Below are positions 24 to 34,090 of a DNA stretch of 36,840 nt, in pieces. A program made the position numbers and the translations under genes. This DNA is from Saprospiraceae bacterium. GTDB lineage: Bacteria; Bacteroidota; Bacteroidia; Chitinophagales; Saprospiraceae. The notes beneath the pieces were generated by a model. That model did not search any database. It saw only the letters and a list, made by a program, of their open reading frames with translations, and was not told where the DNA came from. The DNA is taken from assembly GCA_021739645.1 (NCBI GenBank), contig JAIPBL010000062.1, positions 1 through 36,840 on the forward strand. Direction: 5' to 3'. Positions within the stretch are counted from its first letter, which is position 1, and each line of letters begins with the position of its first letter.

Positions 24-101
24 CTGCCCTCAATACGTGTTCCTAACGGCCCTCATGACTTGAAAACGTGCTATTTTTAAGGCAAAGCCGAAAGAACATA
101 A

Positions 102-120
102 CCACCTGCAAAGCAGGTGG
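102..120 (+). terminator. 8-bp perfect hairpin upstream of the first gene
   Basis: CCACCTGC, an AAA loop, then GCAGGTGG, followed by ATTTCTAATTT. It lies 38 nt before the start codon at 159. It may end an upstream transcript or be a leader hairpin; the T-run is weak. Confidence 0.35.
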
Positions 121-158
121 ATTTCTAATTTGCATTAAACAATCAAAATTTTCAAAAA

Positions 159-1367
159 ATGAAAAAGCAACATCGTAATTTTTGGTTTACATTCATCATC
201 TTTTCAATCATGGGTGTGACTATGTACTTCGGCAGTTGTACCCACGATGATCAAGACTTGGACGAATTCATTCCTGAGGCAACAATAAATGACACCGAGC
301 TTCTTTCCAAAAAAGTAACGACAGCACCTACAGTTGATGGAACTATTGATGCAGTTTGGGATAGTGCGAAAAAATTAATTGGAACCGCCACTGTGCCGGA
401 TCCGGGACAAGATGTTTTCAAAGGTTATGTTGGGGACTCTTACAATTTCACAATGAGGTCACTCTACGACACAGAAAACATCTACTTATTGGTTGAGTGG
501 AACGACAAAGACAACTCACAAGACCGGGAAACTTGGTTCTTCGACAGTGAAGCAAAAAGGTGGGAAGAGGAAAGCAGGTGGCCAACCTTCAACGCTTCCG
601 GTCAAATGACCCGACAGGCATTTTATGAGGACAAACTTGCAATTCTTTGGAATGTAAATAACTCTGTGGCTGATTGGGATAAAACTTCGTGCTATGCCAC
701 TTGCCACACCGGACTAAGCGCAGCTGACGGCCTTGCAAGGCACTACACCAATGCAGCAGATGAGAAGATAGACATGTGGCACTGGAAAAGTGTTAGGGAA
801 GGTGTTTGGGGAGTTATGGACGACCAATACCAAGACAATACTACTCCGAATGGCCGCAAAAGCGACCCAAAAATCAGCGGAAGTTATACAGATAACAACC
901 AATCTTTGGCTATCACTGGTACAACTGACATGGTGAAGGTTCCTAAATACTTCATTCCTGGGAGGGAATACTACTACTGGATTACCAAAACTGAAATCGA
1001 CAACGGTACCGCCAAGCTCATCACGGCTGTGGATGCGGAAGGCAGGTTGACTTATGATGGTGGCGTGATTGACCCAAATGTTGACGGAGGATACCTCCAA
1101 GATGGAAGTATATCCGGGCCAAAGGGCATACCTAGTATTTACACTGAAAGAGTAACTGGTAACCGAGGCGACATTACTGCCAAATTCCAATACACTGGTT
1201 CGGGTTGGATACTTGAGATACAACGCAAACTTAACACTGGAGACGCTGAAAATGTGGACATCAACTTCGCCGATTTGTCCGACCAGTATTTCGGTATCGG
1301 CATCATGGACAATGCAGCCATTGCTCACGCCATAAAGGCAAATCTTTTGCTAAAGTTTGAGAAATAA
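159..1367 (+). CDS. EB_dh-type heme-binding lipoprotein (c-type cytochrome-like)
   Basis: A 402-residue secreted protein. The N-terminus has a hydrophobic stretch ending in the lipobox FGSC, so it is probably lipid-anchored at Cys27. Residues near 57-72 (APTVDGTIDAVWDSAK) and the later IYLLVEWNDKDNS and LAILWN segments resemble the heme-binding domain of the ethylbenzene/dimethylsulfide dehydrogenase gamma subunits (EB_dh family), which carry electrons from periplasmic oxidoreductases. A CYATCH motif near residue 178 has three, not two, residues between the cysteines, so covalent heme attachment is possible but atypical. The gene heads a run of cytochrome and redox genes and is followed by a strong hairpin at 1379. 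Function in this pathway is inferred from family and context; the partner enzyme is not in the window. Confidence 0.75.
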   Translation: MKKQHRNFWFTFIIFSIMGVTMYFGSCTHDDQDLDEFIPEATINDTELLSKKVTTAPTVDGTIDAVWDSAKKLIGTATVPDPGQDVFKGYVGDSYNFTMRSLYDTENIYLLVEWNDKDNSQDRETWFFDSEAKRWEEESRWPTFNASGQMTRQAFYEDKLAILWNVNNSVADWDKTSCYATCHTGLSAADGLARHYTNAADEKIDMWHWKSVREGVWGVMDDQYQDNTTPNGRKSDPKISGSYTDNNQSLAITGTTDMVKVPKYFIPGREYYYWITKTEIDNGTAKLITAVDAEGRLTYDGGVIDPNVDGGYLQDGSISGPKGIPSIYTERVTGNRGDITAKFQYTGSGWILEIQRKLNTGDAENVDINFADLSDQYFGIGIMDNAAIAHAIKANLLLKFEK

Positions 1368-1378
1368 ATTATCGCAAT

Positions 1379-1402
1379 GCCGGCCTTCGGGCCGGCTTCT
1401 TT
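1379..1402 (+). terminator. UUCG-capped hairpin terminator or attenuator
   Basis: GCCGGCC, TTCG tetraloop, GGCCGGC (1379-1396), followed by TTCTTTC. This very stable stem sits between two genes that look functionally linked, so it may be a partial terminator that lowers expression of the downstream genes. Confidence 0.7.
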
Positions 1403-1422
1403 CAATCTAAAAATATTCCATT

Positions 1423-1827
1423 ATGAAAAATATAAAAGTCATCGCAAGCGCAGCCTTGATTGGGATGGTTCTAATGTTCATGGGGAGCTGTTATTATGAC
1501 GAAGTGTTGCCTGAAGACTTGAAAGTTCAAGATGATGGCGCTTTAACAGACGCCAAATTCAGCACTGATATCCTACCAATTTTCAATTCTAGTTGTAGTG
1601 CTGCGGGATGCCATAATACTGGTGGTACTCCTCCAGACCTAACTCCTGCAAAGGCATATGATGCGTTAATTGGTGGTGGGTATATTGATACAGCGGTACC
1701 TGAAAACAGTGGACTCTACCAATGGATGAAAGGCAACAAAGGCATTCCAATGCCTATCACTGGTGCCAACCCTGCCTACAATGCAAAGGTTTTGGCCTGG
1801 ATAAAACAGGGCGCTCAAAACAATTAA
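1423..1827 (+). CDS. Small cytochrome c-like lipoprotein with a CX4CH heme motif
   Basis: A 134-residue lipoprotein; MKNIKVIASAALIGMVLMFMGSC ends in a lipobox with Cys23 as the anchor. The mature part contains TDILPIFNSSCSAAGCHNTGG near residues 48-68. The CSAAGCH motif has four residues between the cysteines instead of two. A distal PMP (residues 110-112) could supply an axial methionine. The fold resembles short cytochrome c domains found at the end of Bacteroidota lipoproteins. It sits 23 nt before a DUF5777 barrel gene, the same arrangement as the hexaheme lipoprotein and the second barrel downstream. The role as an electron carrier on the membrane surface is inferred. Confidence 0.75.
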   Translation: MKNIKVIASAALIGMVLMFMGSCYYDEVLPEDLKVQDDGALTDAKFSTDILPIFNSSCSAAGCHNTGGTPPDLTPAKAYDALIGGGYIDTAVPENSGLYQWMKGNKGIPMPITGANPAYNAKVLAWIKQGAQNN

Positions 1828-1850
1828 CCTAACCAGTAAATAATCTAATT

Positions 1851-2741
1851 ATGAAAAAGCATCTTAAAATATTCTTTCGTGCGCTGGTGGTTGTAAATAT
1901 CCTGCTCTTGGGTACAACGCTTTATGGACAAGAGGAGGAGAGCAGCAAAGACTTGCGCCCCGTGCGAAATATGTTTGAAAGCAGCTGGTTGTTAGACAAC
2001 CAATCAGTTTTGGTTCCTGTGAAAGGTACTTTTGGATTTGACATCCTTCACAGGTTTGGCGTAATTGACGGATACGATAATTTTTTTGGCCTATATGCCC
2101 CTTCAAATATTCGTTTGGGTTTTAGTTACGTACCCGTTGATAAATTAATGGTGGGTTTCGGCCTCACAAAATTTAACCTAACATGGGATATGAATGTCAA
2201 ATATGCCATATTAGAACAAGCCCGAATTGGAGGGTCGCCAATTAGTCTGACCTATTATGGCAATATGGCAATTGATACAAGAGACAAGGAAAAAACGCCC
2301 TATTTGAATGATTCAGACCGATTCTCCTACTTCCATCAGCTCATTTTAGCCAGAAAAGTTACTGACAAATTCTCATTACAGGTTGCTGGCAGCTTATCAC
2401 ATTTTAACACGGTAGAAGCCTACATCAATTCTGACAAGGAAATTGAGGGCATAATGAAAAACGACCATGTCGCAGTCTCAGTAGCAGGACGATACAAAGT
2501 TGGACCATGGCTGAATATCATTGGCAACTATGACCAACCAATAACCGAACACAAGCGGAACAATCCAAACCCAAATATTTCCTTTGGTATTGAGATGACG
2601 TCAAGCTCTCACCAGTTCCAGATTTTTGCAGGAAACTACTACAATATTATTCCTCAGCAGAACAACGTTTTCAACAAAAACAACTTCGGCGATAGCGAAA
2701 TTCTTATTGGTTTCAATATCATCCGTTGGTGGAATTTATAA
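1851..2741 (+). CDS. DUF5777-family outer-membrane beta-barrel protein, copy 1
   Basis: A 296-residue protein with an N-terminal signal peptide (cleavage near LYGQ-EEE) followed by alternating hydrophobic/aromatic segments typical of an outer-membrane barrel, ending in an aromatic-rich IIRWWNL. The RPVRNMFESSWLLDNQSVLVPVKGTF block, the GYDNFFGLYAPSNIR block and SSSHQFQIFAGNY are shared with a second copy in this window (11302-12186), so the two are paralogues. I recognise the family as DUF5777, whose molecular function is unknown. Its position directly behind a cytochrome lipoprotein suggests that it hosts or partners an electron carrier, but nothing in the sequence proves this. It is followed by a strong terminator. 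Confidence 0.8.
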   Translation: MKKHLKIFFRALVVVNILLLGTTLYGQEEESSKDLRPVRNMFESSWLLDNQSVLVPVKGTFGFDILHRFGVIDGYDNFFGLYAPSNIRLGFSYVPVDKLMVGFGLTKFNLTWDMNVKYAILEQARIGGSPISLTYYGNMAIDTRDKEKTPYLNDSDRFSYFHQLILARKVTDKFSLQVAGSLSHFNTVEAYINSDKEIEGIMKNDHVAVSVAGRYKVGPWLNIIGNYDQPITEHKRNNPNPNISFGIEMTSSSHQFQIFAGNYYNIIPQQNNVFNKNNFGDSEILIGFNIIRWWNL

Positions 2742-2746
2742 CCAAG

Positions 2747-2784
2747 AAAGGGTTGGGGCATTTATCTAATCCCCAACCCTTTTC
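2747..2784 (+). terminator. Rho-independent terminator after the first DUF5777 gene
   Basis: A perfect 12-bp stem: AAAGGGTTGGGG (2747-2758) pairs with CCCCAACCCTTT (2771-2782) across a 12-nt loop, with a short T-run. It separates the first cytochrome/barrel set from the ferredoxin-NrfD set. Confidence 0.8.
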
Positions 2785-2802
2785 CATGCAAATGTTTTCA
2801 AA

Positions 2803-3048
2803 ATGAGCAACATGAAGAATGATAAACCCTCCCGCCGCAAATTTCTTTCCCTTGGTTTATTGGGCGGTGCCAGTTTGCTGGCTGGAAAGGCTGAAGCAAA
2901 AACACCATTAGAAAGTGGAGAAACTGTAAAAATGCTCACGCCAGATGGCCAATTGGTGGAAGTGGACAAAGCTGTGCTGGATGCAATGAGCACCGAGCAC
3001 AAGGCAACCAATAAAACAATACTTGATTGGACAAATCAGGTGAAATAG
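2803..3048 (+). CDS. Small twin-arginine signal protein
   Basis: An 81-residue protein. PSRRKFLSLGLLGGASLLAGKAEA is a textbook twin-arginine (Tat) signal, leaving a mature chain of only about 50 residues. The mature part has VKMLTPDGQLVEVDKAVLDAM, nearly identical to VKLLSPDGKLVEVDSKHL in the ferredoxin encoded next (3120-4064). It carries no cysteines or heme motif. It could be a small subunit or Tat-cotransported partner of the ferredoxin, or a remnant of a duplicated N-terminal region. The complete Tat motif and intact reading frame favour a real gene. Confidence 0.65.
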   Translation: MSNMKNDKPSRRKFLSLGLLGGASLLAGKAEAKTPLESGETVKMLTPDGQLVEVDKAVLDAMSTEHKATNKTILDWTNQVK

Positions 3049-3119
3049 CAACCACTAGGAGATAGTATAACCACTAGTTTCCAGTACTTTTTTTTTGCCA
3101 AATTTTCAAAAAGACAACC

Positions 3120-4064
3120 ATGCAAAATTCTGACAATACGCACGGGAATGAAAGAAGAGACTTCATAAAACTCACTGTTTTGGGAGCTGCCGCTGCAGCA
3201 TGTGGGAGTGCCATTTGTTCCTGTGGCAACAAAGAAGAAGCGGGGAAAAAGGTGAAGCTGCTCTCGCCCGATGGAAAATTGGTCGAGGTAGATTCCAAAC
3301 ACCTAAGACCCGTACACAAAACTGTGGGCGTATCAACCGAGGAAGCTCGACTCGGCATCCCTGGCCGCAAATTCGTGATGGTGATTGACCTTGCAAAATG
3401 CAGTAACGCCCGAAAGTGTGTTTCGGCATGTCAGAAAATGCACCACTTGCCAGAAGAAAAAGAGTGGCTCCAAGTGAAACTGATGATGGACAACCCAGAA
3501 TCGGCGCCGTATTGGTTTCCAAAAACCTGCTTTCATTGTGACAACCCACCTTGTGTGAAAGTTTGCCCAGTAGATGCTACTTTCAAGCGCCAGGACGGAT
3601 TGGTACTGATTGATAGCGACCGGTGCATCGGCTGCAAGTTTTGCATGGCTGCCTGCCCATATTCTACCCGGGTTTTCAACTGGAGCGAACCAGACCTGCC
3701 CGAAGATATCGCCGGTCTTTGTTACTCTCCAGAAACCAGTGTTCCAAGCCAAGTTGGTACCGTCGAAAAATGCGACTTCTGTCCAGACATGGTTCGTGCA
3801 GGCGAACTTCCCGATTGCGTCACCGCCTGCCCAAATGGTGTGTTCTATTTTGGTGATGAGAATGAAGACGTGGTGTCCAATGGAGAAGAAACAGTCAGGT
3901 TCTCACAATTGATAAAAGACAAGGCAGGCTACCGTTTCATGGAAGACCTAGGTACTCAACCCCGGGTTTGGTACCTACCACCAAACGACCGGTTATTCCC
4001 GGTTGAGCGCGGTCTTGACGACTTGCCAGATAATATCAAGGATAGGTTCAATGATGTCATGTAA
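3120..4064 (+). CDS. Tat-exported multi-cluster 4Fe-4S ferredoxin (HybA/NrfC-like)
   Basis: A 314-residue iron-sulfur electron-transfer subunit. The Tat signal ERRDFIKLTVLGAAAAACGSA predicts periplasmic location; a CSCG follows. Four cysteine groups are visible: CSNARKCVSAC near residues 94-104, CFHCDNPPCVKVCP near 138-151, CIGCKFCMAACP near 169-180, and CDFC...CVTACP near 219-238. The first group lacks the second cysteine of the usual CxxCxxCxxxC, a pattern I associate with a subfamily carrying a CxNARKC motif. Together with the NrfD-type protein encoded next it forms a quinone-linked electron-transfer module of the CISM type. No molybdopterin catalytic subunit is encoded here, so the electron donor or acceptor is unknown. 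Confidence 0.88.
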   Translation: MQNSDNTHGNERRDFIKLTVLGAAAAACGSAICSCGNKEEAGKKVKLLSPDGKLVEVDSKHLRPVHKTVGVSTEEARLGIPGRKFVMVIDLAKCSNARKCVSACQKMHHLPEEKEWLQVKLMMDNPESAPYWFPKTCFHCDNPPCVKVCPVDATFKRQDGLVLIDSDRCIGCKFCMAACPYSTRVFNWSEPDLPEDIAGLCYSPETSVPSQVGTVEKCDFCPDMVRAGELPDCVTACPNGVFYFGDENEDVVSNGEETVRFSQLIKDKAGYRFMEDLGTQPRVWYLPPNDRLFPVERGLDDLPDNIKDRFNDVM

Positions 4065-15797: not shown

Positions 15798-18700
15798 TCA
15801 ACCTGCTTTTTCCACACAGCCAACCTCCTCCATGCGTTGTTTCATCACTTCAGCCACTTGCCTTCCATGCGGCTCATCGAAAAGCGTGAGGTGGTTTCCA
15901 CCAATGTCATGGGTGATGACACCTCCGAGTGCAAATTTGTCCCAACCGTAGTTCACAGGGTCATGCAAATAAAACATCTGCTCCTTCGCTTTGAACAGAT
16001 CTACCTGAACATCAAGTGGTTGCAGCACATACTTCTGATAAGCCTCAATGCTCTTGTCGTACACCTTGCTACCATAAGGGATGTACCCTTCCTCGATTTC
16101 ATTGGTTTCACTGTTTCGGAACGCCGTGCGCAACCTTCCTTTTTTCTGCTCAAACTGCATCTTAAGCACGTGGGTTTTGTACTCGAAGGTCTTCGCCGGG
16201 TCTTTCATCAAAAGCGACAAATTGTAGCCGATTTTTTTCATTTTTTTGTTGAAACCACCTACGGCTCCGCTGCCTGTCCACTCGTCCTTTGCGACCGCAT
16301 CAAACAACGAAAGCATATGGACTTCCTTTCCCATCGCCTTTAGCTGTTTGGCCATTTCCCAAGCTATGATTCCGCCGAGCGAGTAACCAGCCAGGCAATA
16401 TGGGCCCGTTGGGTTCTGCCGCATCATTTCCGAGATGTAGTGCGCCGCCATGTCCTCAATGCGGTCAAGTGGTTCTTCTTCGCCGTTTAGTCCACGGGCT
16501 TGCAGGGCGAAAATCGGTTGGTCGCCATCCATATATTTCACCATGTTTTGGTAAAAAAGGACGTGCAGTCCACCGCCATGCACGAGGTAAAGCGTTGGTT
16601 TCGAGCCACCCTCCCGAATGGGCACGAGTGACGTAAATTCTTTATTCTCAGCCATTCTTGAATGGCCTTTATGGTTAAACCCGTTGAGTTGAACTGCTAA
16701 TTTACCCAACGTCGAGTGTTGAAAAAGGGTAGTCAGCGGCAACTTCACGCCCGTTTGCATTTTGATTTTCGTCATCATCTGCACAGCTGCCAGGGAGTGC
16801 CCACCCAACTCGAAAAAGTCATCGTTAACGCCTATTTTTTCTACACCAAGCAACTCCTTCCAAAGTGCCTCCAGCAACTTCTCGCCTGGCGTACTCGGTG
16901 ATTGGTATTCTCCAGAGAGAATTGTCAGGTCAGGTTTTGGCAGCGCCTTCCGGTCCACTTTCAGCGAAGTGTTTTGCGGAAACGCATCCATTTTGATGAA
17001 GGAACTAGGCACCATGTAGCCCGGCATTTTGCTCCGCAAAAAATCCTTCAATCGTGCTTCCCAGCCTTCATCGAGCGGTACGCCATTTTCAACTACATAT
17101 CCTACTAGGCGTTGACTGTCCATTGTATCGTTTAACACGTTCACTACACTTTGATACACACCGGGAAACTGCTTCATGGTTTCCTCAATTTCACCCAGTT
17201 CAACCCGGTAACCCCTGATTTTTACTTGGTCGTCAATTCGTCCGAGGAACTCAATTTCGCCAGTGGGCAAGTACCGAACGAGGTCGCCAGTTTTGTAACA
17301 CGGCCTGTCAGTCCGTGTCACGAACCTCTCCGCCGTCAATTCTGGGCGATTCAAGTATCCTGCAGCCACCCCATTTCCACCAATAAAAAGCTCACCGGGA
17401 ACACCAACTGGTACCTGCTCACCATTTTTATCCAAAATCAACATTTTCACGTTGGCAATCGGAGCACCGATGGCGGCAAATTCGCCGGGGCAAGTTGCCA
17501 AGTGTTCCTCAGAAATCAGTTGCCAAGTAGCATAAATCGTTGTCTCCGTTGGGCCATAGCCATTCCACACCTTGCCACAGCAATGCATCATTTTAGCCGC
17601 CAATTCTTTGGAAAATGCCTCGCCCCCTGCAATTGCCCGAAGGTTTGTATCGCCTTTCCAGCCCGACATCAAAAGGATTTTCCAAGTTGTCGGGGTGGCT
17701 TGCATCACGGTCGGGCGGTAGGTTTCGATTTCTTCCCGAAGGGCAAACCCATCTTTCTTGGTCTCTTCACCCGCTAAAACCAGCGTTGCACCAGTAATCA
17801 TGGTTAAAAAATAATCGGGAATACTCATATCGAACGCCATGCTCGACACACTGAACACGGTGTCCAACTCATTCATTTCCAGCTGTTTATTGATGGCAAA
17901 CAGCGTGTTGATGGCGTTGGCGTGACTTATCACTACCCCCTTGGGCTTACCCGTGGAACCTGACGTGTAAATGACGTAGGCAGCCTCCCCCTTGCCCTCT
18001 CCCAAGGAGGGGGAGATAGCATCTGCTAACTTGTCCAATACCGAAACCTGAACTTTTAGGTACGTCTCTGCTCCCTCCCCTTGGGGAAGGGTTGGGGTGG
18101 GGCCTACCAGGTGCGTGCATCCAGCATCCTCCAAGGTCAAGCGGATACGCTCCTGCGGGTTTCGTGGGTCAATCGGCACATAAGCGCAGCCCGTTTTCAG
18201 GATGGCATAAATGCTGACCATCATATCCAGCGAGCGTTCCATGCACAAGCCAACAAATGCCCCAGTTTGCAAGCCATTTTCGAGCAGATGTGCTGCAAGC
18301 GCATCGGCCTTGTCATTCAGTTGGCGATAGCTAAGTGATTGATTGTCAAACTTAACAGCGATTTTTTCAGGCGTTCGCTCCACTTGTTTTTTAAAAAGCT
18401 CATGTAGCGTCGAATTCAATGGGAAGTCGTTGCAGACCTCACCCCGACCGAATTGCTCCAATCGTTTTTTCTCAAAATCGGGCAAAAGAGAAAGCCGTCC
18501 AATTGTGCCGCCGAACTCCAGTTCGGCGCAGGTTTCAACAATGCTCCTCAAAAACACCTCAAACTCCGCCAGTCTCAATCGAATACTTTCCCTTCGGAAC
18601 AAATCGGTATTGAAGTTCCACTCGAAGTCAATGGTTGAGCCAAGCGGCTTCAGATTGATAAATGAATCAAAGGTTTCGTAATGCCTTGGAATGGCACGAG

Positions 18701-21700
18701 TAGTAGCATTCAGGCTTCCAAATTTTAGGTTTTCCAGCGGACTGTCGAGGTTGAATGCCACACTTATCAGCGTGTTTCGGCTGGCGTTCCGGCCAATTTT
18801 CAGTTTTTTCACCAGCGCCCCAAACGTGTATTGCTGGTGGTCGAAAGCATCGAGCACTTGCTTGCGCACTGTTTTCAAAAAATCCCCAAATGGGCCATCG
18901 CTTTTCACTTTCGAACGCACCGGCAGCAGGCTAATGGCATGAGCGACCAGGTTGGCGTTGCCTGGCAAATTATGCCCGGCAGCAGCTACACCCACCACAA
19001 TATCCTCCTGCCTCGAAATGCGACTCAAATAGGCTTTGTATGCCGCCAACATGAACACATAAAAGGTGCTGCCCTGCTTCGCTGCTGCTTTGCGGATTTG
19101 GTTTGTAAATTCTTCATCGAAACTGATTTTCTCTACCGCTCCGTTGAATGTTTTTATAGGTGGGCGGGGGAAGTCAGTGGGCAAATCGAGTGCCGGAACA
19201 GCATCCCTAAATTGCTCCAACCAGTATTTTTCGTTTTTAAAAAATGCGTCAAATTGCTGTAAATCAGCCTGTTCCGTGGCGAATTGACTGAGTTGTTTGC
19301 AGGAACCAAGACTTTTCAAGTTTTCGAAACTTGGAAAATCTGAGCCGTACAACTCCCCTAGCTCTTTGGTAAGAATACCAAGTGACCACCCATCACAAAT
19401 GATATGGTGCACATTGATAAAAACGAGGTGAGCCTGCGCCTCCAATTTCACGATTTTAAAGCGCACAAGCGGCCCATTTTGCAAGTCAAACAGGTGTTCG
19501 GCTTCCTCATTGTGCAAACCGTAACACGGACTGTCAGTCCGTGCTTCTCCGTTTTGGGTTTTTCTGTCAGTCAATTCGTTTGAGTCAGCGCACGGACTGG
19601 CAGTCCGAGTTACGTCCACCAACGGCACCTTAATTTCCAGCTTTGGCAGCACCGTCATTGTCTTTCCATCAGCCGAAAAAACCGTGCGAAGCGCCTCGTG
19701 CCTATCCACCAAAGCTTGCAATGAAGTCCGCATTTTCGCTTCGTCAAACTCGCCTTCCAGCCTAATTTCTGTGGCAATATTGTACGCCTTTGAAGCTGCG
19801 GGGGAAAACTGGTCAGAAAGGAAGATTTCTTGCTGACCTTCGGTGGTCGGAAACGTGCCGCCGAACTCCAGTTCGGCGGAGGAAATGCTTTCAATAATCC
19901 CCACTTCAATATTTGACTCCACCTCCACCGAACTGGAGTTCGGTGGCACAACTATCACGTTTAAATCCTCCCCTTCCCAAGGTTCCATCAGCCCAAGTAC
20001 GAACATCTCGTCAATGGCATCTTCAAAACCTATGTAAGTCCGCTCAAAATCTGCCTCGGTATGGGCGGTAGAAATGAAACATGGTCGCTCCCGGATATTG
20101 ATGCCTTTGGTTCGAAGTACATAATTGAACAACCGGCTAAGCGGGCTGGCATCCGCATTTTTTATCATAAAAAACGACGACGCAGACTGAATCATCAGCG
20201 GTGCTTTTTTCCGAAGGAAAATCTCGCTGATGCGTTCCGCAAAACGGGCAGTTTTTTCATTCAAATCCACCTGCATGGAAGTGCCGAGTCGCTGGATTTC
20301 ACTCAAAGCCGCATGGGCTGCCGCCACGCTGATAGGGTTTTTGATAAAGGTGCTGGCGAAGTAGGCGATGACTCCATCCGGTGAGCTGTCGTCGCCATAG
20401 CCCCAGTAGCCACCGTCAAATGCGCTCATGTACTTCTCCTTTCCAGCAACCGCTGCGAGCGGGAAGCCGCCGGAGATGCTCTTGCCGTAGGCAGAAATGT
20501 CCGCATCCACGCCATACCAAGCCTGTGCGCCACGCTGGTCAAGTCGGAACCCGTTGATGATTTCATCAAAAATCAGTGCTACGCCATTTTGCTCAGTTAT
20601 TTTTCGGATGGCTTTTATCAGCTCGCCATGCTGCCAATGCGGGTTTTGAGCCTGCACCGGTTCGATGACGACCGCAGCCAGTTCGCCGATTTGGTGCGCC
20701 AGTTTTTGCAGCACTTCTGGGTCGTCGTAGTCGAGCACCAGCGTGTTTTCCACCAAAAATTTGGGGACGCCGGGCGACGAAGGCATCGTTTTACTTTCTC
20801 CCCCCGAGCCATCGGGGCGAGATTTGAAATGCACCCCACGCACCATGAACTGGTCAATCATACCATGGTAGTCTGTGTCGAAAACGGCGATTTTATCCCG
20901 CCCTGTAGCGGTGCGAGCGGCACGAACCGCACCTAGCACGGCTTCCGTTCCAGTGTTTGCCAGCGTCACCCGGTCGTAGCCTGTCATCTCGCAAATCATA
21001 CGGGCGATTTCGGTGGCCTCCGGCGGCAACAGGTCTATCGAGTTGCCTCGCTGGATGGCAGCGGCGGCAGCTTTTTCCACAAAATCGGGCATGTGGCCGA
21101 ACAGCGCCACGCCGTAGCTCATCACGTAATCCACGTATTCGTTGCCGTCCACGTCCCAGATATGCGCACCTTTCGAGCGTTCATGGGCAATTTGGTAGCA
21201 GACTTCTTTCCATAATTTGCTGAAACCCGTCACGCTGCGAGGGTCGGCGTAATATTGTCGGTGGCGCTGTGCCATCGCCTTCGATTTTGGGGTCATCGCT
21301 TCGTACTGTTGCATGAAATCCTGCAACCCGGCACGCTGTTTTTCACTCAAATCATCGCCTGTTGAAATCTTTTTATAACTGTTCAACTTGGCCGTGACGC
21401 CCTTGGTGGAGCGTTGGATTTCGACTTCAGGTTGAGGATTTGAGGATTCGTGGATTTGAGGATTTGAGAGGGCAGTGGGTTGGCTAACTGGTTGGGTTAC
21501 AGATGGTTGAACATTTGCCTGCGCCAACGGCTGTCCTTGCAACAGCGCCAATTGTTGCTGCATCAACTGCAACTGCTGGTTGATGATTTGTTGGATAGCA
21601 GGCGAGTTTTCCGCAGAAAACTGTTGCATCGGTTGCTGATAGATCCCACTCCCATTTTCTACTTGCGCAATTTGGCTTGGAATTGTTGAATTAGGTTCCC

Positions 21701-24700
21701 CTTTTGGGGTCAAGGGCAAAACGGCTGGCGCAAAAATCCCAGCCGGGAGCAGTTCATCCACGAACTCCGCCAGTTCCTCAATGGTCGGAGCATCCTCAAA
21801 CAGCACCCGAAAACTCAAGTCCAGCTTGAATTTTTGGTTGAAACGGATGATGGCTTGACTCAAAAATAAGCTATCGAAGCCCAGTTCTAGGAAACTCGCC
21901 GAGGCATCCATTTGAGCAGGTTCCATGCCGCTCAGTTCGTGCAGCGAGGCTTTGATTTCTGCGATGAGGTTGGGGATGCGGGATGTGATTGTATCTGTCA
22001 TGGCAGTTGTGCCGCCGAACTCCAGTTCGGCGGGTGGTTTGGTTAAAGCTGTTATTTTTTCAAATTCTTGACTTCCGCCGAACTGGAGTTCGGTGGCACG
22101 TTTCGGAGCAATAAAATACTTCTTCCGTTCAAACGGGTAGGTCGGAAGTGGCATACGACGGTGTTTTTCACCTTCGTAAAATGCCTGCCAGTCAACGTCC
22201 ACACCGTTGACCCAGAGTTTTCCAAGTGTTTTCAGGATGAACGCCACGTCGTTGCGCACCTCTTTTGGGTGCCGCACGGACGCTAATATGGTTCGAGCCT
22301 CGCCGGGGAGAGTGGGAAGAGCCCGGGCAAACGTACTAAGCGTCTGTCCGGGTCCCACTTCGAGGAAGATACGGTTCTTATTTTGTGATTGGTGATTGAT
22401 GATTGGTGATTGGGCGGCCAGCGTCGCAAGTCCATCGGCGAATCGGACGGGTTGACGGAGATGGCGCAGCCAATAATCCACGGAGGTGGTCTCATCGGCG
22501 GTGAGCCAAGTGCCAGTCACGTTGCTGACCATGGGGATTTTGGGCGCATGAAGCTCAACACCTTCGAGGTATTTTCTGAATTGGGGTAAAATTGGGTCAA
22601 TCAATGGTGAATGTGCTGGAACCTTGATGTGGATTTTGGAGCAATCTACGCCAGCTGTCTTCAGAGATTCTTGCAGTTGGTCAATTGCCGAGGCCGTTCC
22701 GCTGACCACGAGGCTGTCAATTTTATTGATAACGGAAATGGTATGGTTGGCATCCAAAAATGGTCGGAGCAAGTCCTCCGTCGCCGCCACGCTCATCATG
22801 CAGCCATCGCCTTCCAGCGTCTCGAAAAGCTTGCCCCGAACTGTCACCAATCCGAGCGCAGCTTCCAACGACATCACGCCAGCGATGCAGGCAGCCGTGT
22901 ACTCGCCCATCGAGTGGCCAATGAGTTCGGCAGGCTGGATGCCCCAATGCTGCCATAATTTTGCCAGTGAATACTCAATGGTAAAAAGGCTGGCCAAACC
23001 AGCCGCAGGGTTTTGCAGGACGGTTTCATCTGCCTCATTTTTTTCCTTTGGAAAAATTAAGTCCTTGATATCCAGGCCGTGGTGCTGTTCCAATATGGTA
23101 AAACAAGTATCCACTTGTTGCCTGAAAAATAGGTTGGTTTCGTACAAGTCCCTCGCCATGTCAACGTACTGCGCACCGCCACCAGGGAACATGAAAACAA
23201 GGGATGAGGAATGAGGAATGAGGGATGTTGCCTTTATTACTTCCTGTTTTCCTTCGCCTCCGCCAACAAGCAGGGCATTTCGCTTCGCAAAATGTTGGCG
23301 GCCTGTTGCGAGTGTGAAGGCTGCATCTGCAATCGGTACTTGCTTATTTATCTCAAAAAAATAGGTGATGCGGTCAGTCAATTTCGCTAATACCTCGTCG
23401 GTCTTGGCAGAAAGTGGCAATAGTTGCGGACTGCCAACTGCCAACTCAGAACTGCCAACTGAAACTGGGGCTTCTCCTAAAATGACATGCGCATTCGTCC
23501 CGCCCAAACCGAAGCTGCTCACACCAGCAAACCGTGGTTTTTCGCTTCGCTGCCAAGGCCGTAATTCAGCATTTACTTCGAAAGGTGTGTTCTTAAAATC
23601 AATTTGTGGATTGTTTTTTTCAAAATGCAATGTGGCTGGCAACTGCTCATGGTGCAGCGCCAGTGCAGTTTTGATGATGCCAACGATGCAGGCGCCGGCG
23701 TCCAAATGACCGATGTTCGTTTTCACAGAGCCGATGTAACACGGACTGCCAGTCCGTGCTTTTTCATCAAAAGATTGGCTGGCATTTGAAACGGAAACGC
23801 ACGGACTAGCAGTCCGTGTTACGGCTTCGGTCAAGCCTTGAATTTCAATTGGGTCACCGATGAAAGTTCCAGTCCCATGGGTTTCAAAATAGCTAATTTG
23901 GTTACTTGTCAGCCCGGCTTTTTCTATGGCTTTTTGGATGACGTCGGCTTGTCCTTTGCTGCTGGGTGCGGTAATGCCCGTTTTATCCGAGCCGTCATTG
24001 TTGATGGCACTTGATTTTATGACCGCCCAAACATGGTCGCCATCTTCAATGGCCTTGTCCAATTTTTTCAATACCAACATCGCCATTCCGTGGCCCTGCA
24101 CCATTCCGTTTGCGCCAGCATCAAAAGCACGGCAGTAGCCATCAGCAGACAGCGGCCCGCCCTCAATGTGCTCATAGCCGCCATTTACCGGCGCTTGCAC
24201 ACGACCACCACCGACGAGCACCATATCGGAGTCACCGGCGAGGAGGCTTTGGCAGGCAAGGTGCACTGCTACCCCACCCGTCGAGCAGGCGGTTTGAACG
24301 TTGACGGCGGGGCCTCGAAGGTTCAGCTTGTAGGCCACCCTGGTTATGCTGAAACTGCTATCCGAAGCCAACATTTCCTGGTACCAACCACCACTTTTTT
24401 CGAGTAAATCCTTATTTGTCAGTAAGTTATTCAGGGCGTAAGTGTTTCTAGCTACTCCGCCGAATACCCCAATTTTTCCACCAAAACTGTACGGGTCGTA
24501 GCCCGCAGATTCAAGTGCTTCATGGGCGGTTTCGAGAAAATGCCTGTGCTGTGGGTCCATCATTTCCGCCTCTTTTAGGTGATAGCCGAAAAAGGCTGCA
24601 TCGAAGGCATAGGGGTCGCTTAGGGCATAAGCCCGATTTACGATTTTGGATTTACGATTTACGATTATCCCTTCTGCATCAATGTCAGCGTCAGTGACGA

Positions 24701-27700
24701 GGTGGCTGACGTCCTTCCCTTCCACCAGATTTTGCCAAAACTCCTCGACGCTGTTGGCGCCTGGCAGGCGGCACGACATGCCGATGATGGCAATTAACGA
24801 TTGATCGATTGACGATTGACGGTTTTCCTCAACACTCGCAACACCAGAATCGTCAATCGTAAATCGTAAATCGTCAATACCTTGATAGCCAAGCTGTTGT
24901 GCTGTTTCCCATGTCGCTTCGCAAAGGAAATTATCTTCCAAAACGCCCTTCCAATCTTGGGCTTTTCCAGCGTCAATTTTTTTCTTTTGGTCAAAATGGG
25001 TATCTCCCATTGACCGGCTGTCACGGTGGATACCATCGGTCATTTTCTTGTCCAAATCCTGGTAAGGATTGAGCAGACCCTCGTGGAATGGAATATCAAG
25101 CGCCCTACACATGGCTCTCATATTGGCCTCAGGCTGTTGAACCAAATCTTCGTACTCCATTCGAAATTGGCGGTCAGAGGGTACTTTTTCCAAGATTTCA
25201 ACCGTGTTCCGATGGCTCTCCAACCAGACGAGTTCACCAAGTTGCTTCGGGGTGAAGTTGTGCGGATGCAGATAGAGCACCTGGTCCATGTGGTATTTTT
25301 CAAATGACCGCACCATGCTGTACGGGTGGCGAACAAGATGGATAAAACGGGCATTTGGGAAGTCGGCCAGGGCTTTTTCCAACGCTAGGCCGTCCAGCGC
25401 ATAACTCGGCGATTTGTCAACGATTAGGCGGTCGCCACCGACCCATTCCTGCAATTTTGCAAACATCTCAGCAGTCGTCACACCCTCCGCTTCAAAACTG
25501 TGGAGCAAAGCTTTGGCATCTTCAGCAGGGCAGTTTTTCAACTCCATGATTGCCCTGATTAATCCTTCTGACCACAAGGTAAATTTACCCTGATATGCTT
25601 CGTTACGTTCTGCAAGTGTCTCAAAATGGAGCAGTTGCAGTTCGTTGCAAGCGAACAACCCGGGATGCCCAGCGAGCATGACTCGCAGTAACGTGGTGCC
25701 CGAACGGGGCGGTGCAAGGATGAAAATCGGTGCCTGTGAATTGACGATTGACGACTGACGACTGACGATTGGAGGCAGGTGGATTGGGACAATCTTTTTG
25801 AAATCGGCAATGTCGGATGGGGTTAGGGTTACTAAATTTTTGGAGTTTGGAAAACCTTCGTTGTTTTTTGAGGAGCGACTGTTTCCAGCCACTCCCCCTG
25901 TCGTAGGATTATAAATATGGACAGTATCTTCCAGCAACCTCGGAAGGAGGTTTGGATAATTTTCTTCAAAAAAGGCAGCATATCCTGCTACAGTTGGGTG
26001 GTCGAAAATTGTGGTGATGAAAATGGAGGCTTCGCATGCAGTCATCAAGCTGCCGATAAACTTGGCAGCGAGGATGGAATTTCCACCCAACTCAAAGAAC
26101 TTGTCGTGTCGGCCAATGGGGCTGACTTGCAGTAGTTCTTCCCATTTTTCCGTGAAAATTCTCTCTAATTCGCCCTGTGGGGCTTCGAAATTTTGGGCGA
26201 GTTCTGGCCGGTCATTGGCCGGGTCGGGCAATGCTTTCCTATCAATTTTCCCGTTTGTGGTCAGCGGTATTTTCTCTAAAAAAACAACATGTGATGGTAA
26301 CATGTACGCTGGCAAATTGGCAGAAAGAAAGTCATGGATGTCGCTTATCGTCAGCACAAGTCCCTGATTTTGAACGATATAGGCCACCAACTTGCCTTCG
26401 TTTACAACGTGCTGATTTTTTAAGACAACCACTGTCTCCCGAACGGCAGGGTGGTTGGCGATGGCGGTTTCAATTTCACCCAACTCAATCCGATAGCCCC
26501 GAAACTTGACCTGAAAATCGGAGCGGCCCAGGAATTCGATGTTGCCATCAGGTTGCCATCGGGCGAGGTCGCCAGTCCTGTAGCACGGACTGTTAGTCCG
26601 TGATTTTTCTTTTTGGGTGTCAGCAGGCTGGGAAATGGGAATGCACGGACTGGCAGTCCGTGTTACGAAGCGCTCGGCAGTCAATTCTGGGCGGTTCCAA
26701 TAGCCACGACCCACCACGGGCTTGGTGCCTCCGATATAAATTTCACCGACTTCACCACGGGGCACTTCCTGCATTTTTTCATCCAAAATGAAAATCTCGT
26801 AATTTAGGATAGGGATTCCGATAGGCGCCTTAGGCTCATTGAAACCTTTGGGGAAGGTGAAATAGGTACAGTTGACCGTTGCTTCGGTAGGGCCATAGAG
26901 GTTGTAAAGCTGGCCTTCCGGGATGATTTGCTCGTGCTTTTGCGCCAGCGAAGTAGGGCAAACCTCGCCACTGACGTTGACGAGTTTCAGGCTTTGCAGC
27001 TTTTGGACTGGCGCTTGTTCGAGCAGTAGGGTGTAAAGCGAAGGCAGGGTGAGGATGTGGGTTACGTTGTTTCTAAAAATAGTATCAGCAAGTTCCGCCA
27101 TGTCTTTCTCCTCACCCTGACGAGGCAAAACAAGGGGCGCACCTTGCAATAATGTCCAGAAAATAGTAAGTACCGAAACATCGAAGCTAATGGAGCAAGT
27201 GAGCATCATGGCTCCGATGAGTTCCGGTGCGATGGCCTGCTGGCCTTCGAGTTGGTTGCAAAGGTTTTCATGGGTAATCATGCAGCCCTTGGGCTTTCCG
27301 GTGGAACCGGAAGTGTAAATCATGTAAGCCAGGTTGGCTGGATTTACGATTGACGATTTACGATTTACGATTTTGGGAAGGGGCTGGTCAAGCTTTATGA
27401 TTTTTGCTTTTGCATTTATGAGTTTTTGGGTCAAATGGCTTTGGGTTAGGATGACTTTTGCTGCGCAATCTTCCAGCATAAAGGCCATGCGGTCGGTGGG
27501 GTAATCCACGTCTATGGGGACATAAGTGGCTCCGGCTTTTAGGGCTCCGAAAATGCCTATTATCATTTCAAAGGAACGCTCCAAATAGATGGCGACGAAA
27601 TCTTCTGTTTGGATGCCGAGTTGTGTAAGTTGTGAGGCGAGTTGGCTAGAACGGCGGTCAAGCTCAACGTAAGTCATTGATTCTGAACCAAATACAAGTG

Positions 27701-27803
27701 CAGTTGCATCAGGGCAACGGCGGACTACCCGCTGAAAAATATCATGCAGACAAATATCGGATGGAAACGTTGGTACGCTCGATACGTGTTTGTTTTCCTT
27801 CAT
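15798..27803 (-). CDS. Hybrid NRPS-PKS: A-PCP-ST-KS-AT-ACP-AMT-C-A-PCP-TE
   Basis: A 4001-residue single-chain assembly line from the ATG at 27803 (MKENKHVS); an ATG at 27839 would add 12 residues. The domains, listed separately below, give a loading amino acid (A1-PCP1), a sulfotransferase, one malonyl-type extension (KS-AT-ACP) with no ketoreductase, beta-transamination by a class III aminotransferase, condensation with a second amino acid (C-A2-PCP2), and thioesterase release. All main active-site residues are visible. The KS-AT-ACP-AMT-C-A-PCP order matches the transaminating core of mycosubtilin/iturin and microcystin synthetases. The reading frame is open for 12 kb although many short repeats lie in linkers and loops. 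A consensus promoter lies upstream and a phosphopantetheinyl transferase gene follows. The product is not known to me. Confidence 0.92.
   Translation of the reverse strand: [4001 protein letters not shown]
15810..16615 (-). other. Thioesterase domain (type I TE)
   Basis: [19 protein letters not shown], the nucleophile elbow [18 protein letters not shown] and a C-terminal [13 protein letters not shown] with the likely catalytic His. It releases the finished chain by hydrolysis or cyclisation; which cannot be read from sequence. Confidence 0.88.
16690..16890 (-). other. NRPS domain PCP2 (carrier)
   Basis: Carrier domain with [22 protein letters not shown]; the Ser of GGHSL is the phosphopantetheine site. 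It precedes the releasing thioesterase. Confidence 0.88.
17295..17321. repeat. Solo palindrome, family P, copy P4 (in A2)
   Basis: 27 nt from GTAAC to GTCAC around CACGGCCTGTCAGTCCGTG (one mismatch). It encodes VTRTDRPC just before YKTGDLVRY, the same loop as P1 in A1. It looks like a P element collapsed to a single palindrome. Confidence 0.8.
17985..18103. repeat. GC-rich inverted repeat, family R (in A2)
   Basis: CTCCCCCTTG...CAAGGAGGGGGAG (17985-18015) and CCTCCCC-TT-GGGGAAGG (18073-18090, running into GGGTTGGGGTGGGG) flank a core of about 55 nt. It encodes [11 protein letters not shown]...[10 protein letters not shown] in frame in the loop just before VIYTSGSTG. This peptide is a familiar by-product of a common genomic repeat. 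Confidence 0.8.
18505..18530. repeat. Solo palindrome, family Q, copy Q1 (C-A2 linker)
   Basis: CGCCGAACTCCAGTTCGGCG at 18509-18528, preceded by the GTGC end typical of the family. It encodes AELEFGGT in the linker after the C domain. No partner palindrome is nearby. Confidence 0.85.
18540..19850 (-). other. NRPS domain C (condensation)
   Basis: Starts [16 protein letters not shown] and contains an intact HHxxxDG active site ([15 protein letters not shown]). It joins the beta-amino acyl chain on ACP to the amino acid on PCP2. A paired palindrome is inserted in the loop before the catalytic motif (19521-19613). Confidence 0.88.
19521..19613. repeat. Paired palindrome, family P, copy P3 (in C)
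   Basis: 93 nt from GTAAC to GTTAC, with palindromes at 19525-19543 and 19591-19609 (one mismatch). It encodes TRTASPC...RTDSPC in the C-domain loop before [11 protein letters not shown]. Confidence 0.9.
19855..19949. repeat. Paired palindrome, family Q, copy Q2/Q3 (AMT-C linker)
   Basis: 95 nt from GTGCC to GGCAC, with 22-nt palindromes at 19858-19879 and 19925-19946. It has the same outer ends and palindromes as the copy at 22009 but a different core. It encodes PPNSSS at one end and [10 protein letters not shown] at the other. Confidence 0.9.
19970..21350 (-). other. AMT domain (class III PLP aminotransferase)
   Basis: Glutamate-1-semialdehyde-type aminotransferase with [48 protein letters not shown] and the PLP lysine in [11 protein letters not shown]. 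In mycosubtilin and microcystin synthetases this domain converts the ACP-bound beta-keto group to a beta-amine; the absence of a KR domain here fits the same chemistry. Confidence 0.9.
21433..21464. repeat. Octamer array H8 (ACP-AMT linker)
   Basis: Four 8-nt units: TGAGGATT, TGAGGATT, CGTGGATT, TGAGGATT. Encodes [14 protein letters not shown] in the linker before the aminotransferase. Confidence 0.85.
21750..21990 (-). other. PKS domain ACP (carrier)
   Basis: Carrier domain with [20 protein letters not shown]; the Ser of GFDSL is the phosphopantetheine site. The flanking Q/P-rich linker (about 21430-21720) holds poly-Gln-like stretches and repeat-derived sequence. Confidence 0.85.
22009..22099. 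repeat. Paired palindrome, family Q, copy Q4/Q5 (AT-ACP linker)
   Basis: 91 nt from GTGCC to GGCAC. Palindromes CCGCCGAACT-CC-AGTTCGGCGG (22012-22033) and CCGCCGAACT-GG-AGTTCGGTGG (22075-22096) encode AELEFGGT and ELQFGGS in frame. Confidence 0.9.
22130..23215 (-). other. PKS domain AT (acyltransferase)
   Basis: [18 protein letters not shown] and [14 protein letters not shown] (active Ser) are clear. The specificity segment reads [12 protein letters not shown], closer to the malonyl type (HAFH) than to the methylmalonyl type (YASH), so malonyl-CoA is the likely extender. Heptad arrays flank the N-terminus and lie just before [10 protein letters not shown]. Confidence 0.85.
22385..22412. repeat. 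Heptad array H5 (in AT)
   Basis: Four units: GTGATTG, GTGATTG, ATGATTG, GTGATTG. Encodes [10 protein letters not shown] just before [10 protein letters not shown]. Confidence 0.88.
23201..23227. repeat. Heptad array H6 (KS-AT linker, AT start)
   Basis: Units GGGATGA, GGAATGA, GGAATGA, GGGATG. Encodes SLIPHSSSL directly before FMFPGGGAQ. Confidence 0.85.
23429..23463. repeat. Heptad array H7 (KS-AT linker)
   Basis: Five units: GACTGCC, AACTGCC, AACTCAG, AACTGCC, AACTGAA. Encodes [13 protein letters not shown] after [10 protein letters not shown]. Confidence 0.85.
23736..23822. repeat. Paired palindrome, family P, copy P2 (in KS)
   Basis: 87 nt from GTAAC to GTTAC, with palindromes at 23740-23758 and 23800-23818. 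It encodes TRTASPC...RTGSPC in the KS loop between ETHGTGT and KTNIGHL. The core differs from that of P1. Confidence 0.9.
24635..24669. repeat. Heptad array H4 (in KS)
   Basis: Five units: GATTTAC, GATTTTG, GATTTAC, GATTTAC, GATTATC. Encodes [12 protein letters not shown] in a KS loop upstream of FDAAFFG. Confidence 0.9.
24794..24878. repeat. Inverted pair of heptad arrays H3 (ST-KS linker)
   Basis: An array of GATTGAC-type units (24794-24821) and an opposite array of AATCGTC/AATCGTA units (24848-24875) face each other across about 26 nt. They encode the whole ST-KS junction peptide. Confidence 0.85.
24885..25735 (-). other. Embedded PAPS-dependent sulfotransferase domain
   Basis: About 280 residues resembling Sulfotransfer_3/tyrosylprotein sulfotransferase-like enzymes. 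The 5'-phosphosulfate loop is [19 protein letters not shown] and the 3'-phosphate motif is [22 protein letters not shown]; an [25 protein letters not shown] segment follows as in the family. It lies between PCP1 and KS, so it could sulfate the residue carried on PCP1. Sulfotransferase domains are known in CurM and in cyanobacterial olefin synthases, but there they lie next to a terminal TE. Confidence 0.85.
25742..25769. repeat. Heptad array H2 (PCP1-ST linker)
   Basis: Four 7-nt units: TGACGAT, TGACGAC, TGACGAC, TGACGAT. Encodes [12 protein letters not shown] directly before the sulfotransferase. Confidence 0.9.
25955..26180 (-). other. NRPS domain PCP1 (carrier)
   Basis: Carrier domain with [20 protein letters not shown]; the Ser of GGNSI is the phosphopantetheine site. 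It holds the amino acid loaded by A1 and is followed, unusually, by a sulfotransferase rather than a condensation or KS domain. Confidence 0.85.
26580..26666. repeat. Paired palindrome, family P, copy P1 (in A1)
   Basis: 87 nt from GTAGC to GTTAC. Two 19-nt palindromes, CACGGACTGTTAGTCCGTG (26584-26602) and CACGGACTGGCAGTCCGTG (26644-26662), flank a unique core. It encodes a TRTASPC...RTNSPC peptide in frame just before YRTGDLARW. Confidence 0.9.
27341..27375. repeat. Heptad array H1 (in A1)
   Basis: Five 7-nt units: GATTTAC, GATTGAC, GATTTAC, GATTTAC, GATTTTG. Encodes [11 protein letters not shown] in the variable loop before MIYTSGSTG. Confidence 0.9.
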
Positions 27804-27995
27804 AGTGGTATGCTTAATGCAGGCTCTGCCAAGCTGCATAGTATTTGTTCTATTCAGTGCGAAAGGGAGGTGAGATTTCTGGAAGACCTAATAGCTGCAA
27901 TCGCTAATTTTATAGCCAGCAGATTTGAATGGGAATAGTCGGTTAGAATTAATGAAAAATCTAAAATTTGCGGGGAGCAATATCAAAATAGTGTA

Positions 27996-33643: not shown

Positions 33644-33660
33644 CATCATTTTTAAAATAA

Positions 33661-34090
33661 AGTAAGGGGGGTAGAGTCTGGTCGTATTTTGATTGATTCG
33701 GTAAAAGGGAACCGACTCAAGTTGATTGAATGTATGGGGGGTAGAGACTGGCTTTTCTTTCTGACTCCTGGGTTTACTCATTTTCCTGAGAAAAAAGTAA
33801 GGGGGGTAGAGTCTGGTCGTATTTTGATTGATTCGGCTTTGAAAACCGGCTCAAGTTGATTGAATGTATGGGGGGTAGAGACTGGCTTTTCTTTTCGGTT
33901 TTTGGGCTAAATCTTTCTCAAAAAAAAAGTAAGGGGGGTAGAGTCTGGTCGTATTTTGATTGATTCGGCTTTGAAAACCGGCTCAAGTTGATTGAATGTA
34001 TGGGGGGTAGAGTCTGGCTTTTCTTTTCGATTCTGGGGCATACTCATTTTCCTGAGAAAAAGTAAGGGGGGTAGAGTCTGGTCGTATCGT
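33661..34090. repeat. Tandem repeat array, 65-70-nt half-units
   Basis: GGGGGGTAGAG begins at 33666, 33736, 33801, 33870, 33933, 34002 and 34066, seven times. Two alternating half-units (AGTAAGGGGGGTAGAGTCTGG and TGTATGGGGGGTAGAGACTGG types) make a full period of about 132-135 nt, repeated three times plus a partial copy. It fills most of the gap 33575-33982 and extends into the 3' end of the next glycosyltransferase gene. Confidence 0.95.

Follow-up and report, generated by a model that had tools for sequence, protein, structure and literature searches.

How can one long gene carry short repeats of several families at many of its domain seams and loops and still be read in a single frame? 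The question is raised by a hybrid NRPS-PKS gene on the minus strand (15798..27803) of the window, which here means the whole analysed stretch of 36,840 nucleotides from a Saprospiraceae bacterium. In what follows, WIN denotes the studied gene and its genome, L024-L032 are close orthologues and L033-L041 are more distant orthologues.

Structure and coding state of the megasynthase gene

The gene has the order A1-PCP1-ST-KS-AT-ACP-AMT-C-A2-PCP2-TE, taken from the positions of Pfam matches together with motifs; the families matched are adenylation, PP-binding, sulfotransferase, ketosynthase, acyltransferase, aminotransferase, condensation and thioesterase. Its frame spans 15798-27839 and encodes 4013 aa without interruption. 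Although the reading frame is open to an ATG at 27839, the start at 27803 is backed by the N-termini of the orthologues L025, L028 and L030.

The frame holds 16 repeat sites, every one of them in frame, and inspection of inserts and codons agreed with the sequence-only reading, which had described at least sixteen in-frame repeats at seams and loops. Two palindromes recur, namely F1, CACGGACT-NNN-AGTCCGTG, with three inverted pairs and one single copy in the gene, and F2, CCGAACT-NN-AGTTCGG, with two pairs and one single copy. Heptad arrays (GATTTAC, for example) make up most of the remaining sites, together with a single octad array and a C-rich inverted pair. A fixed-threshold label recovers 14 of the 16 sites; the octad array and the C-rich pair score below it and are visible by eye.

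From the 5' end of the gene, a GATTTAC/GATTGAC heptad array (H1, 27341..27376) lies in A1 upstream of the motif YMIYTSGSTG, and an REPIN-like F1 inverted pair of 87 bp (P1, 26580..26666) fills the A1 loop ERF..TGDL. The PCP1-ST linker has a heptad array (H2, 25739..25772), the ST-KS linker has an inverted pair of heptad arrays, that is, a hairpin (H3, 24791..24879), and a loop near the KS N-terminus has a further heptad array (H4, 24634..24666). A second F1 inverted pair of 87 bp (P2, 23736..23822) fills the KS loop ahead of IGSVKTNIGHL. Three heptad arrays follow, one in the KS-AT linker (H7, 23430..23459; VGSSELAVGS), one directly before AT (H6, 23199..23228; LIPHSSSL) and one within AT (H5, 22382..22413; SPIINHQS). 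F2 inverted pairs occupy the AT-ACP linker (Q4/5, 22009..22099) and the AMT-C linker (Q2/3, 19855..19949), and the octad array with its 8-bp period stands between them in the ACP-AMT linker (H8, 21432..21468). A C-domain loop carries an F1 inverted pair of 93 bp (P3, 19521..19613), an insert that is found only in the WIN species among the 10 close orthologues examined. The last three sites are a single F2 palindrome at the C-A2 seam (Q1, 18508..18529), the C-rich inverted pair in A2 (R, about 17985..18101; PTPTLPQGEG..SPSLGEGKGE) and a lone F1 palindrome in the ERF..TGDL loop of A2 (P4, 17295..17317).

The assignment of sites to loops rests on alignments to solved homologues and on length variation among orthologues. 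Specifically, the F1 inserts of KS and A1 are gaps in the alignment to solved homologues, and that of the C domain falls in a stretch with several gaps when aligned to 2jgp.

Outside the repeats, dN/dS between WIN and four orthologues was 0.07-0.10, with a dS of 0.56 against L024 and of 1.5-2.0 against the other three, where it is near saturation. Strong purifying selection acts on the megasynthase domains. That the repeats reflect an assembly artefact or a pseudogene is exceedingly improbable: several F2 copies do sit where contigs end, and the orthologues come from metagenome assemblies, but the 4013-aa frame is open with recognisable domains, long open frames exist in independent orthologues, and the low dN/dS together with these frames rules out the pseudogene reading. 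It had also been claimed that the inserts leave the frame and the catalytic motifs unbroken, which fits the open frame and the recognition of the catalytic domains by Pfam.

Repeat families across the genome and enrichment in the gene

In the 6.16 Mb genome, whose repeat totals may be low as repeats break assembly, F1 was found in 84 arms at up to 2 mismatches (5 for a reversed-pattern control) and F2 in 60 arms at up to 1 mismatch (control, 2). The heptad GATTKACGATTKACGATT gave 67+87 overlapping matches (control, 0), several of which stand close together on opposite strands, as in the ST-KS site. The megasynthase makes up 0.2% of the genome and holds 7 of the 84 F1 arms and 5 of the 60 F2 arms, as against 0.16 and 0.12 arms expected under a uniform distribution. 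F2 palindromes also lie within 50 bases of the ends of contigs C1, C10, C50, C66, C90, C103 and C122; F2 therefore probably breaks the assembly and is undercounted.

We then compared the gene with a control sample of 300 kb (20 stretches of 15 kb on already-known contigs, and thus not strictly random), of which 173 ORFs of at least 200 aa, or 229 kb, formed the coding set. With one detector for all, the 12.0 kb of the megasynthase yielded 6 hairpins and the same number of heptad arrays, and 4 hairpins and 4 heptad arrays in the 229 kb of other coding DNA with ORF ends trimmed by 30 bases; without trimming, 11 of the 173 ORFs contained 8 hairpins and 4 heptad arrays. The combined density of hairpins and heptad arrays in the megasynthase is 20-30 times that of the other sampled genes. 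The non-coding rest of the sample had 27 hairpins and 5 heptad arrays, so that the hairpin density of the megasynthase (0.50/kb) is similar to that of non-coding DNA (0.38/kb). The seven sampled ORFs of at least 1000 aa showed no hairpins or heptad arrays; long genes as dense as the megasynthase, which would have refuted the sequence-only reading, were thus not met with in the sample.

The same reading had seen none of the families inside other genes of the window. This holds for the window, since the detector found no hairpin or heptad array in the 24.6 kb outside the megasynthase, but not for the genome, where F1 or F2 copies occur in frame within a murF-alr type fusion (an F1 pair, accompanied by a heptad array), a gatA-like amidase, a nuoF-like gene, an FMN oxidoreductase, a penicillin-amidase-type gene and an FAD oxidase. 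Beyond the Pfam family, the names of these host genes (the likeness to murF-alr, gatA and nuoF) are our own presumed identifications. The FAD oxidase gene (L053, C50:1-6007, ORF 71-3178) carries in frame an F1 pair together with two heptad arrays, both of them short; it is the richest other gene seen and resembles the megasynthase on a smaller scale. A separate feature of the window is a 132-bp tandem array of 3.3 copies with GGGGGGTAGAGTCTGG units at 33654-34087, which overlaps predicted ORF ends.

Among genome stretches fetched outside the megasynthase, some of them because they carry repeats or Y1 genes, 63 F1 arms comprised 28 in no ORF of at least 80 aa, 15 only in ORFs of 80-149 aa and 20 in longer ORFs; of 36 fetched F2 arms, 19 lay in no ORF of at least 80 aa and 4 only in ORFs of 80-149 aa. 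Well-formed F1 pairs with tags outward on both sides numbered 23, namely 7 in coding sequence and 16 elsewhere, and the spacing between arms was divisible by 3 in all 7 coding pairs as against 8 of the 16 others (p=0.026).

Different repeats at the same seams in orthologues

When public genomes were scanned with the aminotransferase domain, 18 loci were obtained that were assigned to Saprospiraceae, Saprospirales, Bacteroidetes or Bacteroidota, and 12 of 13 other genomes of the same genus had a match of at least 74% identity. Orthologue loci were paired with genomes by coordinates, identity or frame length. Note that the sites were picked from WIN repeats, which favours WIN, and counts are hence also given without it. 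In the close group (WIN and L024-L032), a repeat was present in 78 of 143 covered site-by-species cells, or in 64 of 127 without WIN, as compared with 4 of 128 in the distant group and 5 of 229 random background windows in the same genes. Across nine orthologue loci, 80 features were counted in the 97.9 kb of the gene itself, as opposed to 5 in 46.0 kb of neighbouring coding DNA. L029 by itself accounts for 15 heptad arrays plus 4 hairpins, and L033-L041 together have one hairpin (L038), zero heptad arrays and some 8- or 9-bp arrays (L033-L035).

At least three repeat labels were found at 13 of the 16 seams, or at 11 if heptads one base apart are merged, the ST-KS and KS-N seams reaching three labels only through heptad variants that differ by one base. 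At the AMT-C seam, for example, WIN has F2, L025 and L028 have two other palindrome pairs, and L026 and L029 have heptads. Three seams are without such turnover: AT-ACP has F2 only, and the C loop and C-A2 have a repeat in WIN only. The search for shared inserts among orthologues thus mostly turned up different ones, with two exceptions, namely the F1 insert in KS, common to WIN, L025 and L028, and F2 at AT-ACP, common to WIN, L024, L027, L028 and L031 and degenerate in all except WIN. The F1 pair also occupies equivalent loops in different domains, that of A1 in WIN and that of A2 in L028. Several repeats have been lost or have decayed in L024.

The suggestion that the gene tolerates insertions in linkers accords well with these observations, as the repeats lie in loops and linkers that vary among orthologues, the F1 pairs of KS, A1 and C lie where alignments to solved homologues have gaps, and the domains are under purifying selection. 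However, tolerance alone leaves the excess over other long genes unexplained.

Could the inserts have been selected for a function, either as mRNA hairpins that slow ribosomes at seams or as peptides that serve as flexible linkers? The five F1 and F2 pairs of the gene fold strongly as RNA (-30 to -61 kcal/mol, z -6.6 to -10.1), many repeats stand at domain borders, and different repeats converge on the same seams. However, distant orthologues have the same core domains without the repeats, both repeats and peptides vary between species, some inserts lie inside domains, and L024 has dispensed with several of its repeats or let them decay. We therefore regard a selected function as improbable, and the inserts are presumably without benefit to the enzyme.

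Repeats in the gene and in each host genome

F1 is present in the gene of WIN, L025 and L028 only, and these genomes hold 65, 32 and 69 copies, respectively (up to 1 mismatch); seven orthologues without F1 in the gene have 0-6 F1 copies in their genomes. When four families were followed through 11 genomes, 48 of 965 matches fell in the gene as against 1.65 expected if uniform, an excess of about 29-fold in which the 48 are not independent events because heptad matches overlap; without WIN, 30 of 741 matches fell in the gene. Repeats in the relatives are often of kinds that are common in their own genome, as judged from genome-wide counts that cover few repeat families of L030-L032. The correspondence has gaps. 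The L026 gene, about half covered, has neither F1 nor the GTM heptad despite 26 and 87 genome copies; the GTM heptad is absent from the gene of L028 (22 genome copies) and L025 (3 copies), and the exact CGC heptad is absent from the gene of WIN and L024 despite 28 and 31 genome copies. Viral contigs gave 0 exact matches to the 24-base F1 consensus.

F2 arms in the gene differ in their state of preservation, with no mismatch in the four arms of WIN and 3, 2 and 3 mismatches in the three alignable arms of L024. This is only suggestive of homogenisation of F2 arms in the WIN genome, since the p=0.004 of the 8-to-0 split presupposes equal rates.

Plain insertion and possible loop replacement

Loop lengths provide information on the mode of entry. 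The KS loop is 16 residues long in all eight covered rows of L033-L041 and 33-34 residues long in the three rows with F1, where the pair supplies about 29-30 residues and about 4 ancestral ones are kept; about 12 ancestral residues are therefore gone. In A1, nearly the whole loop is supplied by the F1 pair, and the V and Y on either side of the A-domain loop are encoded by the ends of F1. A C-domain stretch of roughly 10-17 residues elsewhere is almost gone in WIN beside the insert. On average, rows with and without a repeat are less than 3 residues apart at six seams (A1 pre-A3, KS-N, KS-AT, AT-N, AT-ACP and ACP-AMT), and at the other ten of the 16 seams the rows with a repeat are at least 5 residues longer, so that pure loop replacement does not hold for every seam. 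These lengths give a clear picture of apparent replacement at some seams and growth at others. The missing residues may reflect mechanistic replacement or later trimming.

One explanation of the excess is that the gene is targeted more than others, e.g. because it is often single-stranded or offers short matches (AATC, GTA/TAC) to the repeat ends, with entry by microhomology-guided patching that replaces the loop. Such a bias is possible, if doubtful. It would account for the excess over other long genes, for the KS loop that keeps so few of its residues beside F1, for the V and Y encoded by the F1 ends at the A-domain loop borders and for the six seams with little change in length. However, the lengthening at the ten other seams is what plain insertion predicts, and insertion bias and selection after insertion are not separable on present data. 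A related proposal, that hairpin elements replace loops in frame, in a patch-like manner or linked to a Y1 transposase, and that copies at shared seams are kept near the consensus while the family is active, strikes us as unlikely. If the proposal were true, each species would be drawing on the repeat pool of its own genome to rewrite the loops of one enzyme.

Mobility genes and REP/REPIN features

The genome has seven Y1_Tnp matches, of which the one on C58 falls just short of the Pfam cut-off (21.8 of 23 bits). The C58 gene is RAYT-like and has a perfect F2 palindrome on both sides, as a cognate gene of a REP/REPIN family would have; a RAYT-like gene on C51 is flanked by a CCCC variant of F2, and a C14 gene, IS200-like in look, has one F2 copy nearby. 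The best NCBIfam match of C58 and C51 is REP_Tyr_transpos, at 65.2 and 74.0 bits, both below the cut-off of 80. C123, the sole RAYT over that cut-off, has no flanking palindrome. The flanks of F2 show no clear GTAG or CGTC tag.

F1 has most of the features of a REP/REPIN family. It is a palindrome of 20-40 bp with a GTAG-type tag on one side and tens of copies, it forms inverted hairpin doublets (23 pairs, of which the three in the gene have RNA z values of -6.6 to -10.1), and it is predominantly extragenic, as seen in the 63 arms fetched outside the gene. The tag is mostly GTAA, with few GTAG, in the consensus GTAACACGGACTGCCAGTCCGTGCTT, which was built from 70 copies, each oriented to favour a left GTA tag. 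A RAYT gene cognate to F1 was sought near the seven Y1 genes and none was found, no F1 palindrome with a perfect stem being present within 500 bases of them; C138 has a hairpin only partly similar to F1. Judged by their sequence, the F1 and F2 pairs look like REPINs, i.e., inverted REP doublets, and they may have moved by means of RAYT or IS200-type Y1 transposases. Against such a route, Y1 transposition is not known to delete target DNA, and here loop residues are missing.

Further loci of this kind were seen in the genome. L090 (C51:36708-43447) has a RAYT-like gene with eight F2-variant palindromes of the CCGAACCCC type, three of them inside the predicted frame. L022 (C91:613-3807) has a Y1/RAYT-like gene between long perfect AT-rich palindromes (AAATCATGGTGATTT...), and L020 (C27:1-2148) has a RAYT-like gene with several flanking palindromes that belong to yet another type (CGCCGAAGTCCCCTTCGGCG, CTGCCGAAGTGGACTTCGGCAG and a CGCCAAAG form).

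The proposal of domain exchange

The repeats had also been proposed to act as short homologies that drive domain exchange between modular genes, a proposal that we consider very unlikely. It finds some support in the position of repeats at domain seams, in the same F1 pair in the equivalent loop of A1 (WIN) and A2 (L028), and in a 72-nt stretch at 79% identity between A1 and A2 of WIN. However, several repeats lie inside domains rather than at seams, and no modular partner turned up in a search confined to Condensation and AT families: the genome has one Condensation gene, and the sole AT domain outside the megasynthase lies in a frame of 306 aa.

Domain trees mostly agree as well. L031 and L032, and likewise L034 and L035, are sisters in 9 of 9 domain trees, and WIN and L024 in 8 of 9, the exception being AT with a support of 0.46. 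Apart from A2, domain distances correlate with those of the rest of the gene at r 0.81-0.94. On the side of exchange are A2, where r is 0.36, and the branches of L025, L028, L030 and L033, which shift between domain trees. The A2 of L025 (aligned to residues 3140-3720 of P0001) is unusually divergent from close relatives and is possibly an exchanged or fast-evolving adenylation domain. L034, L035 and L038 are about 5020-5040 aa long, with an apparent additional C-A module. They hold 0, 0 and 1 hairpins, respectively, and no heptads, which argues against exchange driven by repeats; two 9-bp arrays are present in L034 and three in L035.

Proposed origin of the inserts

In the explanation that we favour, and to which we assign a probability of about 0.75, the gene acts as a long-term sink that collects small hairpin-forming repeats active, now or formerly, in the host lineage. 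REPIN-like pairs, namely F1, F2 and, in relatives, other palindromes, and heptad arrays, some of them head to head, would enter the gene again and again, and purifying selection would remove the copies that break frame or fold, so that in-frame copies would survive at a limited set of loops and linkers. Entry would proceed by replacement of part of the old loop. Resident copies would then decay and later families would take their place, a serial replacement that would leave different repeats at the same seams in different species.

If so, the megasynthase is a natural insertion scan, and the seams that tolerate 7-30 foreign residues map sites for enzyme engineering. Moreover, traffic of REP-like elements into a strongly selected gene becomes readable across species, which bears on how such elements move and on whether proteins are shaped by them.

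Comparison with known systems

The heptad arrays of the megasynthase are, we presume, akin to STRR-like heptanucleotide repeats. Like bacterial heptanucleotide tandem repeats, as far as the partial descriptions at hand go, they are 7-bp arrays at many genomic places; unlike these, they also lie in frame in protein loops and sometimes form inverted array pairs. The palindromes resemble REP/REPIN systems with their RAYT (TnpA-REP) in being short, in the GTAA/GTAG tag of F1, in their inverted doublets and tens of copies, and in the presence of several families per genome. They differ in the unusually many copies in one coding gene, in that no F1 RAYT was found and in the unclear tag of F2. The F2-flanked RAYT-like gene has NHVH and YILNNP, as listed for RAYT subclass 2.4 in the sections available of PMC6006769, which report this subclass from Bacteroidetes among others.

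In the open-access literature, most subscription papers being outside it, we came across no account of such repeats, either from NRPS/PKS genes or from Saprospiraceae. Rickettsia palindromic elements (RPE) are about 150 bp long and encode peptides in frame in unrelated genes, according to the available portion of PMC10969869. The likeness to the present elements, which are likewise palindromic and in frame inside conserved genes, is one of kind and not of sequence, and ours are about 20-95 bp long and concentrated in one gene. Closer parallels are intragenic GTAG/CGTC REPs, for which the available portion of PMC3733652 describes in-frame singles and dimers that encode 20-30 aa inside genes, double insertions in the single gene uvrA, and recB genes of two Xanthomonas species in which different REPs occupy roughly the same site, and proposes that linkers and loops tolerate REPs. 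Relative to that portion of the work, which deals with DNA repair genes, the target here is a megasynthase, about 16 sites lie in one gene, heptad arrays occur beside REP-like pairs, and ten close orthologues are compared together with genome copy numbers. In-frame REPs and RPE are thus known, and what is new is this density, the reuse of seams by multiple families and the partial replacement of loops.
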